Source of the DNA: SAR116 cluster bacterium
GTDB taxonomy: Bacteria > Pseudomonadota > Alphaproteobacteria > Puniceispirillales > Puniceispirillaceae
Length of the DNA: 13,043 nucleotides
Direction: 5' to 3'
NCBI GenBank assembly: GCA_002700485.1
Contig: PADU01000040.1
Span: 1-13,043, forward strand
The translations under genes and the position numbers were made by a program. The notes below the pieces were generated by a model. The model saw only the letters and a list, made by a program, of their open reading frames with translations. It was not told where the DNA came from and made no database searches. How positions within the stretch are numbered: position 1 is the stretch's first letter; each line of letters begins with the position of its first letter. Shown here one piece after another: positions 6,163 to 11,120 of the stretch.

Positions 6163-6924
6163 TCAGCCTTTGCCGCACACAGGGCATGCCGGATCAGCTG
6201 ATACACTGATTTCCGTGAAGCGGGCAGACAGACCATCATATAAAAGTAATCTCCCTATTAAGGCGGTGCCTGTTTGGGTAAGTAATTTTATAGCTTCTGC
6301 TGTCTGCAGTGCTCCCATAATTAATGTTGTTGATCCAAGCACACCAGCAATAGAACAAGACGGCGCCTGATCATAATCAAGTTCCGTCTGCGGGAAGATG
6401 CAGCGTAAACATGGGCTTTCTTCTGCATCTGGCACAAAGCAGGTGATCTGACCATCTGTTCTTACCGCGCCGGCAAAGATCAGCGGTGCCTTATGTTGAT
6501 AACACTTTCTATTAACCAGATAGCGTGTTTCATCATTATCTGTGCAGTCAACGACTAGATCATGTGAGCCAACTAGTGTATCAGCATTTTTTTCACTGAA
6601 CCTGATTGTCTTTATGTGAACCTGAATGTCAGGGTTTAACGATCTTGAAAATAGGGCCGCGCTCTCAGCTTTATTCATTGCCAGCCGATCCATCGAATGG
6701 ATGATTTGCCGGTTCAGATTGGTCAGCTCAACTTCATCATCGTCAATCACTGTCAGATGCCCAACCCCTGCCCCGGCCAGTCCGGCAATCACAGGTGCGC
6801 CAAGACCGCCTGCGCCTAGGATAAGGACTTTGGCGTCTAACAGTTTTTTTTGTCCAACCTCACCAATTTCTGGCATTACAACCTGCCGGGCATAGCGTTC
6901 TACTTCTTGATCGGTCAGTATCAT
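6163..6924 (-). CDS. moeB: HesA/MoeB/ThiF-family E1-like adenylyltransferase, probably MoeB
   Basis: MoeB activates the C-terminal Gly-Gly of the small molybdopterin synthase subunit MoaD by adenylylation. ThiF does the same for ThiS. The 253 residues (E. coli MoeB has 249) show the start [12 protein letters not shown], nucleotide loop GAGGLG at 37 to 42, an acidic [13 protein letters not shown] stretch (61 to 73), and CTDN at 127 to 130. Two zinc-binding pairs are present, CLRC (172 to 175) and CPVC (247 to 250). There is no C-terminal rhodanese domain. Cys190 (APSC) lies near the position of the E. coli MoeB cysteine. No MoaD, MoaE or ThiS gene is nearby, so MoeB versus ThiF is not proved. 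The start overlaps the dut stop by four bases (ATGA), so it is the last gene of the coaBC-dut-moeB run. Confidence 0.9.
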
Positions 6925-7403
6925 GATGGCTCCCTGGAATCCTGTTGTTTGGCACCTTCATAGAGGCCGGTTGACCCAAATCCTCCATCAGCACGCGATG
7001 TGTTATCCAGTTTGTTTGTCAGCTGGAAAGTTGCTTTCAGAACGGGGCTGAAAATCATCTGGGCAATCCGCATCCCGTGGTCAATTGTAACCGGTTCTGC
7101 CCCTAAATTAATCAGCAGTACTTTTATTTCACCGCGATAATCAGAATCGATTGTGCCAGGTGCATTGGCAACAGTCAGTCCTGTTTTCAGGGCTAGGCCG
7201 GAACGGGGCCTTATCTGAGCCTCCACTCCTTCTGGCATGGCGATAAAGAGGCCTGTTGGCACCGCTGCCCGCTGTTGTGGGGGCAGTTCTATGGACCCTT
7301 CAGTTAAAGCAGCCTGCAGATCAACGCCTGCAGATAGTTCTGTCTGATAGGCAGGCAGAGGCAGGTCAGCTGCCGCTTCACTTTGTTTCAATTGAACAAT
7401 CAT
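6921..7403 (-). CDS. dut: Deoxyuridine 5'-triphosphate nucleotidohydrolase (dUTPase)
   Basis: Dut hydrolyses dUTP to dUMP and pyrophosphate, keeping uracil out of DNA and feeding dTMP synthesis. At 160 residues it is a standard homotrimeric dUTPase with all five motifs: AGVDLQA (25 to 31), RPRSGLALK (65 to 73), [14 protein letters not shown] (80 to 93, with Asp86 and Tyr89), RIAQMIF (112 to 118), and [10 protein letters not shown] (137 to 146). The gene overlaps the 3' end of coaBC by 26 bases and the start of moeB by four. It must therefore be co-transcribed and probably translationally coupled. The coaBC-dut pairing is also found in E. coli. Confidence 0.97.
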
Positions 7404-8820
7404 GCGCCTTTATCCATTGGTCAATTTCTACAATCAACCGTTCTGCAAGTGCCTGTTTTGACTGGTATGGCCAGTCAATAATGTCCACCCCCTTTAGCAG
7501 GCTTGCCTTGTTATGGTCAGAACCAAAGACCGATGATGATGGGTCATCAGAAATATGGTTGGCAATGATCCAGTCACATTTCTTTTTTGCCAGCTTGTCT
7601 TTCGCATGGCGAATCAGATGTTCTGTTTCCGCAGCAAAACCAATAACAAGTGGAGGTCTGCTGGTAGCTTGGCTCAGGCTAGCTAGAATATCAGGGTTTT
7701 TGGCAAGCTCAATTTGTGGCTGAACATGGTTCTGTTTTTTTTGTTTTTGTGTCGCAGCGTTTAAAACATACCAGTCTGCCACAGCTGCGGCACAGATGGC
7801 GATATCGGCAGGCAGGGAGCTCAGGCAAGCCTGATGCATCGCCCTGGCTGTGTTCACCTTGACCAGAGTCACATTGGCAGGACAGGGCAAGCTGACAGGG
7901 CCGCTGACCAATGTGACGCGCGCGCCATGCGCTGCACAGGCGGCCGCAAGTGCATAGCCCTGCTTTCCGGAAGATCTGTTGGAAATATAGCGCACTGGGT
8001 CAATTGGCTCATGTGTTGGGCCAGAAGTGATCAGCACATGCCGCCCGGCAAGACAGTTTCTTTTGCTATGCACAACCTGAGCTGCTGCATCGGCAATATC
8101 AACTGGTTCAGCAAGACGACCAATCCCTATCTCGCCGCAGGCCGTATCGCCGCTGACGGGCGCAATAATCTGCACACCGCGCTGATCCAGGCAGGTCAGA
8201 TTATCTTGTGTTGCGGGATGTTGCCACATATTTGGGTTCATGGCCGGTGCCACCATGACAGGCGCATCGGTTGCCAGACACAATGTTGAGGCAAGGCAGT
8301 CTGCGAGACCATGGCTGAGCTTGGCAATGAAATTAGCTGTCGCTGGCGCGACCAGCACTAAATCTGTATCACGGGCTAAGCGAATATGACCCATTTCGGC
8401 TTCATCTGTAAGTGAAAACAGCTCTGTGTAGACTTTATCTCCAGTTAGTGCTGAGAGGCTGAGTGGTGTGATAAAATTCTGAGCTGATTCAGTCATCACA
8501 CCACGCACAGAAAATCCCCTGTCCATTAGGCGGCGGGCTAGGTCAAGCCCTTTATAAGCGGCAATACCTCCGGTGATTATTAGCAACACCCGTCTCTTTG
8601 TTTGGGTGGTGAGGGGGTAAAGCTGTAATTTTTTAGGCTCAAATGACCAGCCCTTTGCATGCAGGGCTGTGCTGATTATGGCCATCTTGTCGCGCGGCAA
8701 CTCGGCACGTCGCAGATAATTGGATAAGGCGCTTGGCCCAACACCCAGCAGGGCTTGTACAGCATCACGGCCTCCAAGCTTTTGGATAACCTGAGCGAAT
8801 ATATCTGCAAAATCAGACAT
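7378..8820 (-). CDS. coaBC: CoaBC (phosphopantothenoylcysteine synthetase/decarboxylase) with an extra N-terminal HTH-like domain
   Basis: CoaBC joins cysteine to 4'-phosphopantothenate (CoaB) and decarboxylates the product (CoaC, FMN-dependent) to 4'-phosphopantetheine on the CoA pathway. The 480 residues exceed E. coli CoaBC (406) by an N-terminal extension of about 70. The CoaC domain (about 75 to 245) has GGIAAYK, His145 (MGHIRLAR), PATAN, PAMN with Asn195, and Cys228 in [10 protein letters not shown]. The CoaB domain (about 258 to 475) has [20 protein letters not shown] with Asn281, AAAVADW, and Lys374 in LAKNPDIL. The extension includes [20 protein letters not shown], with a helix-turn-helix pattern like Cro/CI-type DNA-binding domains. 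It reads in one frame with no stop, and the start at 8820 has a weak GAG eight bases upstream. An internal ATG codon (Met46) would leave out most of the extension, but it splits the domain and lacks support. A palindrome array lies directly upstream. Confidence 0.94.
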
Positions 8821-8833
8821 AGCAGTATCTCAA

Positions 8834-8865
8834 AATTCACAATATTGTGAACAATTCACAATATT
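8834..8865. promoter_or_regulatory. Overlapping palindromic operator-like array upstream of coaBC
   Basis: Three alternating copies of the half-site TTGTGAA/TTCACAA fill most of the 48-bp gap between ubiB and coaBC. Bases 8836 to 8851 form a perfect 16-bp palindrome, TTCACAATATTGTGAA. Bases 8841 to 8851 and 8855 to 8865 are perfect 11-bp inverted arms around CAA. The 13-mer AATTCACAATATT occurs twice in direct orientation (8834 to 8846 and 8853 to 8865), 19 bp apart, close to two helical turns. No T-run follows, so it does not look like a terminator. Its place 14 bases before the coaBC start suggests an operator, possibly for the HTH-like domain at the N-terminus of CoaBC itself. That link is inference. 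A plain sigma-70 promoter was not evident, and the best -35/-10 matches are weak and lie within the repeats. Confidence 0.65.
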
Positions 8866-8868
8866 TGT

Positions 8869-10365
8869 CTACAGTAAACCAGAATGACCAAATAATACAA
8901 GGGCTAGCAAGCCAGTAATTATGAGCCACGGCATTTTTGATGGAGGTGGCGGAGCAGGATCAGCCTGATCCAGCCTGTCGAGCAGTTTTGGCAAAGTTTG
9001 ATACAAACGTAAAAGGTTCTGGCCAAACTGTCTGGCTTGCGTTTTAAGGGTCACTTCAGATGACATCCAGTTTTCCGCTAGTGGGCGAGCTAAACCCCAC
9101 ATATTTGCCTTTGGGTTAAGCGTGCGGGCCACCCCTTCTGCCATCATCATTGTCTTTTGCAGAAGGTTAAATTGGGGCTGAACAGATATATCAAAATGTG
9201 AAGAAATTTTCAAAATTTGACCTAAAACAATGCCTAGTGAAATATCTCCAAGTGCTTTGCCAAGTACAGGTTCAACAACACTCCGCAGGCTCTGTGCAAA
9301 TAGAGGTAGAGGCACATTTTCAGAAAGCATGCCGGCATCATAATGAAGATGGGCAACATAGTCATAGTCGCGTTCCAATATTGCCATCAATAATCGAGCT
9401 AGAAATAGCCTGTCTGAAAAGTCAAGTTGACCCATAATGCCAAAGTCAATAGGCACAAGGGTACCGTCAGCAGTTATAAATATATTCCCCGGATGCATGT
9501 CAGCATGAAAATAACCATCTCTGAAGACCTGATTAAAAAAGCTAGTCGCGGCTATTTTTGTAATCTCCTCAATATCATGTCCGGCTGCTGCCAGCGCATC
9601 AACATCATCAATGCGCACCCCATCAATCCATTCTGTTACTAGAACAGAACTGCTGGTGCGCTCCAGATCAATGAATGGGATCCTGATCCCGCTGTCTGCT
9701 TCCAGATTCTCTGATAATTTACCGCCGGCGGCTGCTTCCATCCGTAAATCGAGTTCGATTTCTGAAATTGACTCAAATTGATCAACAGCGGTGACAAGAC
9801 GAAGTCGCCGCAAGGCTGGGGCTAATGTTTCAACTAGCCGTGCCATAGTCTTAAAAAAACGGATATCCCTGCGCATCCGTTTGTGGATATCAGGCCGTAA
9901 AATCTTTACAGCAACCAGACGGCCATCAGGAAGCTGTGCCTTATGCACTTGAGCGATGGAGGCAGCTGCGACAGGCATGTCATCAAAGCTGCTGAAGAGC
10001 TTCTCAACTGACTCACCAGCACTGTCCTGTATGATCTGGCGAGCTAGTCTACCACTGAAAGCAGGCAGCTTATCTTGAAGCTGTACTAACCCGCCGGCTA
10101 GTTCAGGGCCAATCAGATCCGCTCTTGTGGCGAGGGCTTGGCCAAATTTAATGAAACCTGGCCCAAGGGCCTGCAGCGCCTCACAAAGCGCCTGACCTGC
10201 ATCTGTGCGGGCACTGCGTGAGACAATTAAAAAATTGACCAATTTAAACAGATTGGCCAGCCACGCAGGCCACAAATCAAGTTTGGATAAATGGCCTAGA
10301 ACACCTGCTCTACCCAGAATGAAGCCCATCCGCGGGAGCCGCCAAATAACTAGAATTACGGCCAT
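8869..10365 (-). CDS. ubiB: Ubiquinone biosynthesis ATPase/kinase-like protein UbiB (ABC1/ADCK/AarF family)
   Basis: UbiB is a membrane-associated atypical kinase-fold ATPase required for ubiquinone synthesis, probably helping hydrophobic intermediates reach the Ubi enzymes. The 498 residues include the family hallmark KxGQ (KFGQ from Lys73) and the alanine-rich loop in place of the normal glycine-rich loop (AAASIAQVH, 133 to 141). Further motifs are VAVKI with Lys154, the ExD motif (Glu204 to Asp206), HADMHPGN (287 to 294) and DFG (307 to 309). The C-terminus ends in a proline-rich linker and one hydrophobic segment (MPWLIITGLLALVLFG), the expected membrane anchor. The start ATG shares one base with the ubiE stop (TGATG), so translation is coupled to ubiE. 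Confidence 0.95.
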   Translation of the reverse strand: MAVILVIWRLPRMGFILGRAGVLGHLSKLDLWPAWLANLFKLVNFLIVSRSARTDAGQALCEALQALGPGFIKFGQALATRADLIGPELAGGLVQLQDKLPAFSGRLARQIIQDSAGESVEKLFSSFDDMPVAAASIAQVHKAQLPDGRLVAVKILRPDIHKRMRRDIRFFKTMARLVETLAPALRRLRLVTAVDQFESISEIELDLRMEAAAGGKLSENLEADSGIRIPFIDLERTSSSVLVTEWIDGVRIDDVDALAAAGHDIEEITKIAATSFFNQVFRDGYFHADMHPGNIFITADGTLVPIDFGIMGQLDFSDRLFLARLLMAILERDYDYVAHLHYDAGMLSENVPLPLFAQSLRSVVEPVLGKALGDISLGIVLGQILKISSHFDISVQPQFNLLQKTMMMAEGVARTLNPKANMWGLARPLAENWMSSEVTLKTQARQFGQNLLRLYQTLPKLLDRLDQADPAPPPPSKMPWLIITGLLALVLFGHSGLL

Positions 10366-11120
10366 CAGTCAAGTTTCCAACCGGAGTGAATGGCCGCGAT
10401 GCCATTTGACAAATTCCGAAAGCGAACTTGGGCAAAACCGGCCTCTGACATCATTCTGGCAAGATCATGCTGTGCGGGAAATGTGCGGATTGATTCGGCA
10501 AGATAACGGTAGGCGGCTTCGTCACGTGCAACCATCCGGCCCAGCTGTGGCATGGCGTTAAATGACCAGAGATCATATAATTTAGAAAATGTGGCATTCT
10601 GAACAGTTGAAAATTCAAGGCAGCAGAAACGGCCACCCGGTTTCAAGACACGAAATGCTTCACGCAAGGCCACATCGCGGTTGGTCACATTGCGCAGTCC
10701 AAAGGAAATGGTTACCCGTTCAGCTGTCCCTGTCTGCAGTGGAATATCTTCTGCACTGGCAACAGTCCAGTCAAGCTGGTTTGAATAAGCCTTTATATCG
10801 CTCCGCTTTTTGCCTGCGCTGATCATATCTGGATTGATATCAACTACATGCACATGACTGCCGCCGCGTTTCAGAAATCTGAGCGCAATGTCACCTGTGC
10901 CGCCAGCCAGATCGATTAGAATCTGTCCCTTACAAGGGGCTAGCCAGTCCATTAAGGCATCTTTCCACAGCCGGTGAACGCCGCCGCTCATCAGATCATT
11001 CATAATATCATAGGACGAAGCGACAGATGAAAATACATCCGCAACACGAGACTGTTTCTCCTTAACAGGCACGGTTTCAAAACCAAAATCTATCCATTCA
11101 GTTTTAGGCTGGTTTGTCAT
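10365..11120 (-). CDS. ubiE: Ubiquinone/menaquinone biosynthesis C-methyltransferase UbiE
   Basis: UbiE is the SAM-dependent C-methyltransferase that converts demethoxy-benzoquinol intermediates on the way to ubiquinone (and demethylmenaquinol where menaquinone is made). With no menaquinone genes in view, ubiquinone is the likely product. The 251 residues match the family. Motifs are VFSSVASSYDIMNDLMSGG (30 to 48), SAM motif I ILIDLAGGTGDIA (67 to 79), Asp94 in VVDINPDM, SFGLRNV, and FRVLKPGGRF. It is the first gene of the minus-strand block ubiE-ubiB-coaBC-dut-moeB and is divergent from mutM across 138 bp. Confidence 0.96.
   Translation of the reverse strand: MTNQPKTEWIDFGFETVPVKEKQSRVADVFSSVASSYDIMNDLMSGGVHRLWKDALMDWLAPCKGQILIDLAGGTGDIALRFLKRGGSHVHVVDINPDMISAGKKRSDIKAYSNQLDWTVASAEDIPLQTGTAERVTISFGLRNVTNRDVALREAFRVLKPGGRFCCLEFSTVQNATFSKLYDLWSFNAMPQLGRMVARDEAAYRYLAESIRTFPAQHDLARMMSEAGFAQVRFRNLSNGIAAIHSGWKLD

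Follow-up and report, generated by a model that had tools for sequence, protein, structure and literature searches.

The 13,043-nt stretch of SAR116 cluster DNA analysed here (the window) carries coaBC on its minus strand, and the order of transcription is ubiE, ubiB, a 48-bp gap, coaBC, dut, and a ThiF/MoeB-type gene (Table 1). The gap (8821-8868) is bounded by the coaBC start codon at 8820-8818 and by the end of the ubiB-type gene at 8869. Downstream, the coaBC/dut and dut/ThiF gene overlaps are only a few bases each, and dut and the ThiF/MoeB-type gene are probably co-transcribed with coaBC. Both CoaBC domains exceeded their Pfam cut-offs (111 bits against 22.7 for PF02441, and 235.6 bits against 22 for PF04127), and residues 74-474 aligned with the solved full-length CoaBC of PDB entry 6tgv (E = 1.2e-73). 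H145, N195, and C228, which we take to be catalytic-motif residues of CoaBC, are invariant in the CoaBC alignment A1; judged by sequence, the catalytic motifs look kept and the enzyme is apparently intact.

Table 1. Genes, protein domains, half-sites, and promoter-like hexamers at the coaBC locus of the window.
Feature	Position	Strand	Basis
ubiE	10365-11120	minus	Pfam Ubie_methyltran
ubiB-type gene, upstream of array	8869-10365	minus	Pfam ABC1, 3e-75
coaBC, 480 aa	7378-8820	minus	ORF list; Pfam Flavoprotein and DFP; PDB 6tgv match; carries N-terminal Cro-type extension
Cro-type helix-turn-helix domain, residues 1-67	8620-8820	minus	A2 profile match, E 1.9e-26 (the window sequence is a member of A2)
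Helix-turn-helix core, residues 18-40, including Y35 and R38	8701-8769	minus	3bd1 alignment and A2; helix limits inferred
CoaC (PPC decarboxylase) flavoprotein domain, residues 77-247	8080-8592	minus	PF02441, E 5.7e-32
CoaB (PPC synthetase) domain, residues 257-441	7498-8052	minus	PF04127, E 4.7e-70
dut (dUTPase), overlaps coaBC end	6921-7403	minus	Pfam dUTPase, 4e-32
ThiF/MoeB-type gene, overlaps dut end	6163-6924	minus	Pfam ThiF, 3.7e-73
Half-site 1, TTGTGAA	8855-8861	minus	Sequence
Half-site 2, TTCACAA on coaBC strand	8845-8851	plus	Sequence
Half-site 3, TTGTGAA	8836-8842	minus	Sequence
Promoter-like hexamers TTCACA-16-GATACT, overlapping array	8824-8851	minus	Consensus scan; not evidence of function
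Second promoter-like pair TAGACA-16-CACAAT	8871-8844	minus	Consensus scan; not evidence of function

The N-terminal extension of CoaBC

Because the known CoaBC homology (6tgv) begins at residue 74, the extension of the window protein was taken as residues 1-73; at ~73 residues, it agrees with the ~70 additional residues reported in an earlier note made from the window sequence. That note also likened residues 15-45 to the recognition half of a Cro/CI-type helix-turn-helix (HTH) and suggested a profile search of the N-terminus, which was run with 28 relatives. Alone, the window extension gave weak Pfam matches (YdaS_toxin, 0.012; P22_Cro, 0.013), at 12.5-16 bits and thus short of the curated cut-off of 30. 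The profile built from an alignment of the extension domains of the 28 relatives (A2) matched the solved Cro proteins 3bd1 (E = 1.6e-10), XPH1 5w8y (1.8e-8), and P22 Cro 1rzs (0.0065), and the suspected HTH similarity was thereby upheld. Two BURRH entries were also matched at 2.6e-7, a value summed over weak repeats of which no single one passes. When the A2 members were scanned singly (E up to 1), 27 of the 28 matched YdaS_toxin (best 4.7e-8) and 25 of the 28 matched P22_Cro (best 9.8e-7); the best bit score shown for the domain was 29 against a cut-off of 30.2 (P0139). The protein database's own table assigns PF14549 to many proteins of f4, one of the families labelled f1-f4 below. The extension is thus classed as Cro-type on sequence homology and not on Pfam membership. 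Six residues (G16, G17, L25, S33, N34, and P42) are invariant across the 28 aligned domains. A phage or toxin-antitoxin remnant was considered and rejected: YdaS merely names the domain family, and the neighbours are housekeeping genes.

Within the order Puniceispirillales, which is the SAR116 cluster, a CoaBC match was found in 88 of the 101 genomes of the window's genus, family, and order, leaving 13 without one. The 88 loci examined came from 87 of the 88 matching genomes (G039 was left out), and in two of them, L062 and L066, the contig stops short of the domain; the extension is present in all 86 readable loci. One genome (G044) has two coaBC copies, L029 and L045, with the extension on both; a second CoaBC match at G049:C79:1135-2364 contains three stop codons and lies in a genome with 7% contamination. 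A class-wide sample gave a CoaBC match in 300 of 387 genomes, and among those listed from outside the order the extension was not seen: alignments started at query residue 37-76, and nearly all at 59-76. Of the six class members whose matches reached furthest into the extension, two (G287 and G204) had no HTH on reading and three others run across stop codons.

In a large protein collection, residues 1-75 retrieved 29 proteins with the f1 query, 182 with the f4 query, and 3 with the f3 query, and both CoaBC domains were found in every protein listed (for f4, 120 of the 182). A domain scan of named species genomes yielded 31 loci, comprising 29 CoaBC fusions, one fusion to HisZ (L173), and one free protein (L174); the records are labelled SAR116 cluster or Alphaproteobacteria, apart from one each labelled Rhodospirillaceae and Proteobacteria, and L174, which is labelled Deltaproteobacteria. 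Of 41 genomes scanned with the A2 profile, 37 gave exactly one match each, always at coaBC, and the remaining four are also without a coaBC match.

Half-sites between ubiB and coaBC

Read toward coaBC, the gap contains the array TTGTGAA-N3-TTCACAA-N2-TTGTGAA, with the spacers ttg and ta; the repeats are perfectly inverted. The earlier note's three alternating TTGTGAA half-sites in perfect palindromes within a 48-bp gap were confirmed at 8861-8855, 8851-8845, and 8842-8836. Three loci of the window's genus (L007, L009, and L010) have a fourth, imperfect half-site, TTCACT, that extends the array outward. A promoter-like consensus scan of both strands gave four sites, compared with 0.7 in shuffles; a terminator at the array was rejected, as no terminator-like site was found there. 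The window's own assembly comprises 1.73 Mb and is 76% complete; in it, the sole mismatch-free place of TTCACAATATTGTGAA is the coaBC gap, and allowing two mismatches adds a single other place. The gap is likewise the sole exact place of the two-half-site pattern TTGTGAANNNTTCACAA, for which 19 places were found within two mismatches (two at one mismatch, the rest at two) compared with 5 for the reversed control, so weaker additional targets in this genome are possible.

TGTGAA half-sites were counted in the 130 nt upstream of coaBC in 82 of the 88 loci (L022 and L024, whose 5' ends are cut, were left out, as were L062, L066, L089, and L090), and the expectation was taken from dinucleotide shuffles. 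Families f1-f3 together had 135 half-sites against 7.7 expected, a statistic that treats related genomes, which are not independent; by family, the counts were 98 against 5.9 in f1 (52 loci), 31 against 1.4 in f2 (10 loci), and 6 against 0.4 in f3 (3 loci). At least one half-site was present in 61 of the 65 f1-f3 loci, and at least two in 48. Elsewhere in the same loci, TGTGAA occurred 4, 0, and 0 times inside coaBC and 5, 1, and 0 times at the ubiB end (f1, f2, and f3, respectively). Counting was repeated for just the interval that follows the ubiB stop codon, a stretch that includes the first bases of coaBC; the gap was identified in 81 of the 82 loci, and 80 were used. The result was 83 against 6.9 in f1 (51 loci), 24 against 1.1 in f2 (9 loci), and 6 against 0.2 in f3 (3 loci), with the automatic ubiB end probably misplaced at very short gaps (e.g., L012, L017, L023, L046, and L051). 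The earlier note had proposed a survey of the extension against upstream palindromes, and in the one run here, 40 control CoaBC genes without the extension, hand-picked among the class matches listed, had five half-sites (2.0 expected) in five loci, and never a pair.

When no motif was specified, the top enriched 7-mer in f1 was TTCACAA, which 38 of the 52 loci contain (1.8 expected). The spacing is fixed: allowing one mismatch per half-site, the f1 geometries +-10, -+9, and ++19 were present in 18, 19, and 21 of the 52 loci (shuffles 0.10, 0.03, and 0.05), and in f2 an inverted pair at 8 occurred in nine of ten loci (0 in shuffles). Motif-free inverted repeats, which are weaker than the motif tests, were found in 17/52 f1 loci (shuffles 4.8, maximum 11), 6/10 f2 loci (0.9), 3/3 f3 loci (0.3), 15/17 f4 loci (7.5, maximum 11), and 6/40 controls (2.2, maximum 5). 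Across 61 genomes, the three-half-site pattern at up to two mismatches gave 26 matches in 18 genomes and two for the reversed control. The 16 that have one mismatch or none are all at coaBC, and the ten at two mismatches are divided equally between coaBC and elsewhere; a wide regulon of the full array was rejected on these numbers.

The exceptions are concentrated. In f1, 17 of the 52 loci show one exact half-site or none, including four (L015, L040, L041, and L047) without any, and all keep the extension; they fall in genus g4 (10/12), in g2 (5/13), and once each in g8 and g9. Their gaps hold looser relatives of the half-site, for example TGTGAT, and in g2, g9, and g4 one TTCACA lies within the last codons of ubiB. 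The earlier note had named relatives that bear the extension without the palindromes as counting against its proposal; this is seen in part, most g4 loci and some g2 loci having the extension with fewer than two exact half-sites. No f1-type three-half-site pattern at two mismatches was found in 43 of the 61 genomes, including f2, f3, and most of f4.

Family f4 and the HisZ fusions

Family f4 differs from f1-f3 in both the recognition helix and the array. Residue 35 is W in 19/19 f4 proteins and Y in 65/65 of f1-f3; residue 38 is R (61) or K (4) in f1-f3 (n = 65), compared with L (15), N (2), Q (1), and K (1) in f4. In the 130 nt upstream, TGTGAA is at chance level in f4 (1 against 1.1 expected) and ATGAAA is in excess (40 against 9.1), and AATGAAA-N2-TTTCATT is present in 14 of 17 loci (0.30 in shuffles); in the gap alone, ATGAAA/TTTCAT was counted 23 times (6.1 expected) and TGTGAA 0 times (0.9 expected). 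TATAAT occurs in 8 of the 17 upstream stretches. Residue 38 may be what reads the G that is missing from the f4 array. The f4 array is weaker evidence than the f1-f3 half-sites: the ubiB stop codon lies partly within its first AATGAAA, many loci gain an ATGAA from the start of coaBC, the ubiB end is itself rich in ATGAAA words (16 in 17 loci), 15 of the 17 loci are from one genus, and the motif-free 7-mer test was headed by ubiB coding words.

The same kind of domain also occurs on a different protein. In a second alphaproteobacterial group, L173:2483-3214 (+) encodes a Cro-type HTH on the N-terminus of a HisZ-like protein (tRNA-synt_His, 5.1e-25; P22_Cro, 6.9e-5 but below the Pfam cut-off), and the fusion is also present at L175, L178-L195, and L197-L199. 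Among 61 genomes around L173, the match includes the HTH part in 24; the HTH was seen on reading in 22 of 23 HisZ loci and by profile match in the 23rd (L196), and 17 of 19 genomes scanned in this group had a single domain match. Upstream of 22 HisZ fusions, TTCAT/ATGAA was counted 107 times (28.0 expected) and TGTGAA four times (2.2 expected). Residue 38 in the fusions (n = 22) is L (10), Q (9), or D (3), so that they resemble f4 more than f1-f3 at this position. At L173:2300-2345, ~150 bp before the HisZ fusion gene, lies an inverted repeat centred around ATGTGATA...TATCACA. HisZ and CoaBC have in common the same kind of domain, at the N-terminus of a biosynthetic protein, but the enzyme differs, and the two fusions probably arose independently. 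In the portion of PMC9413887 available to us, nothing was found on an HTH-HisZ fusion.

At L174:778-1026 (+), a free 82-amino-acid Cro-like protein with LGVGPSAVSNY adjoins a divergent gene resembling an Xre-type regulator; L174 was rejected as an enzyme fusion. Its arrangement is a possible picture of the source of the Cro-type domain.

CoaBC as a putative trigger enzyme

The Cro relationship, the conserved array, the co-occurrence of the two, their joint difference in f4, and the near single-place pattern were all computed. The link between domain and repeats, which the earlier note had put forward as inference, gains support from them: extension and half-sites are found together over most of the order, paired half-sites are lacking before the 40 control genes without the extension, genomes tend to have the three-half-site array at one place only, and in f4 the recognition helix has changed along with the array. 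From these sequence patterns, we think it likely that the SAR116 order has in CoaBC a trigger enzyme, its N-terminal Cro-type HTH binding the ubiB-coaBC array and controlling its own operon. Two features that such an enzyme calls for are found in the sequence: enzyme and DNA-binding domain are in one chain, and operator-like sites at its own gene are conserved with the domain, the exceptions being mainly g4 and g2. The third, binding of that DNA with a change of transcription in response to metabolism, is predicted.

The putative mechanism would begin with HTH-CoaBC binding the array between ubiB and coaBC. Since promoter-like hexamers of the coaBC strand lie partly within the array, bound CoaBC is predicted to repress coaBC and, via the overlapping genes, also to hinder dut and the ThiF/MoeB-type gene. 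The half-sites are 9-10 and 19 bp apart and thus on one DNA face, which would suit several HTHs of one CoaBC oligomer holding them together. Binding may report the amount of enzyme or its ligand state; of the signals that the earlier note put forward (FMN, phosphopantothenate, or CoA), a first guess would be CoA, or else its thioesters, both being inhibitors of mycobacterial CoaB.

Three-part operator arrays are known from phage switches. Over helices 1-3, the CoaBC extension is homologous in sequence to P22 Cro (1rzs) and the Xylella prophage Cro (3bd1); however, phage Cro proteins are free repressors of 60-80 amino acids, whereas the SAR116 domain is fused to a host enzyme and has a single apparent target. 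Trigger enzymes such as BirA, NadR, and PutA consist of a metabolic enzyme and a DNA-binding domain and act as transcription factors, and the binding of PutA is confined to the spacer beside the putA gene, according to the part of PMC8249747 available to us. CoaBC resembles them in joining an enzyme to a DNA-binding domain, and it likely shares with PutA, as described there, a sole target at its own gene. The enzymes and pairings differ, of course: SAR116 has CoaBC with a Cro-type domain and a three-half-site array, and its regulation is predicted.

In the accessible part of PMC7794376, mycobacterial CoaBC is described as a dodecamer whose corners are CoaC trimers and whose edges are formed by CoaB dimers; the M. 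tuberculosis enzyme is inhibited by CoA and CoA thioesters. Control of CoaBC has been little studied, and the authors state there that nothing was known of it in any organism before the CoA thioester tests. Mycobacterium CoaBC (6tgv) has the same two catalytic domains as the SAR116 protein but no N-terminal HTH, and it is known to be controlled not at transcription but through inhibition by CoA and CoA thioesters. We found no report of a DNA-binding or autoregulated CoaBC in the open-licence literature; PMC11487621 includes both CoaBC and helix-turn-helix, and in the part of it accessible to us the latter term refers to CymR of Bacillus.

HTH-CoaBC might bind the array as an activator, or as a pure concentration sensor without a ligand, and neither the direction of control nor the f1 promoter position is fixed by sequence. 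We consider this unlikely, however, as the array in the window overlaps or sits downstream of the promoter-like hexamers, which is a repressor-like place, and Cro proteins are repressors. Somewhat less probable still is that the array serves as operator for a different regulator, such as one of the CRP/FNR type, with the Cro-type domain of CoaBC acting elsewhere or not on DNA here. The half-site does have TGTGA in common with the CRP consensus, TGTGA-N6-TCACA, the surplus of two-half-site places over the reversed control could indicate a wider set of weak sites, and g4 has the domain but weak sites. The inner spacing at coaBC, TGTGA-N5-TCACA, is nevertheless unlike that of CRP, and a three-half-site array confined to coaBC at no more than one mismatch in 61 genomes is unlike a global regulator; moreover, the lack of paired sites before the 40 CoaBC genes without the extension, and the joint difference of array and recognition helix in f4, argue against another regulator.

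We regard as very improbable that the inverted repeats act in RNA, as a hairpin, attenuator, or terminator, and that the N-terminal domain survives from a phage protein only as a structural remnant. The repeats are able to pair, and when 75-nt leaders of nine loci were folded, all nine were somewhat stabler than mononucleotide shuffles (L013 the most, z = -2.8), but the majority of the z values, from -0.5 to -1.8 (f4, -0.5), were weak, and an RNA hairpin was rejected as the main cause of the repeats on that account. The array also has no terminator-like site, its letters and spacing are both kept, and the third half-site has no place in a single hairpin; in addition, invariant residues in all 28 domains are unlike a decaying domain.

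Beyond CoaBC as a probable trigger enzyme, we offer more tentatively, as a possibility a little short of probable, that the Cro domain, derived from phages, acts as a portable module and was attached more than once to alphaproteobacterial biosynthetic enzymes (CoaBC and HisZ), making each enzyme a near single-target regulator of its own gene. A CoaBC cage with up to twelve HTHs would then read a phased half-site array, so that transcription would follow CoA supply with no regulator besides the enzyme. With the HisZ fusion as a parallel, a general route by which enzymes become regulators is suggested, and the two putative natural specificities (f1-f3 and f4) would make a clean binding test. SAR116 is a large group of surface-ocean bacteria, and if the proposal is true, CoA supply and transcription would be coupled in it by a regulator that is part of the enzyme.
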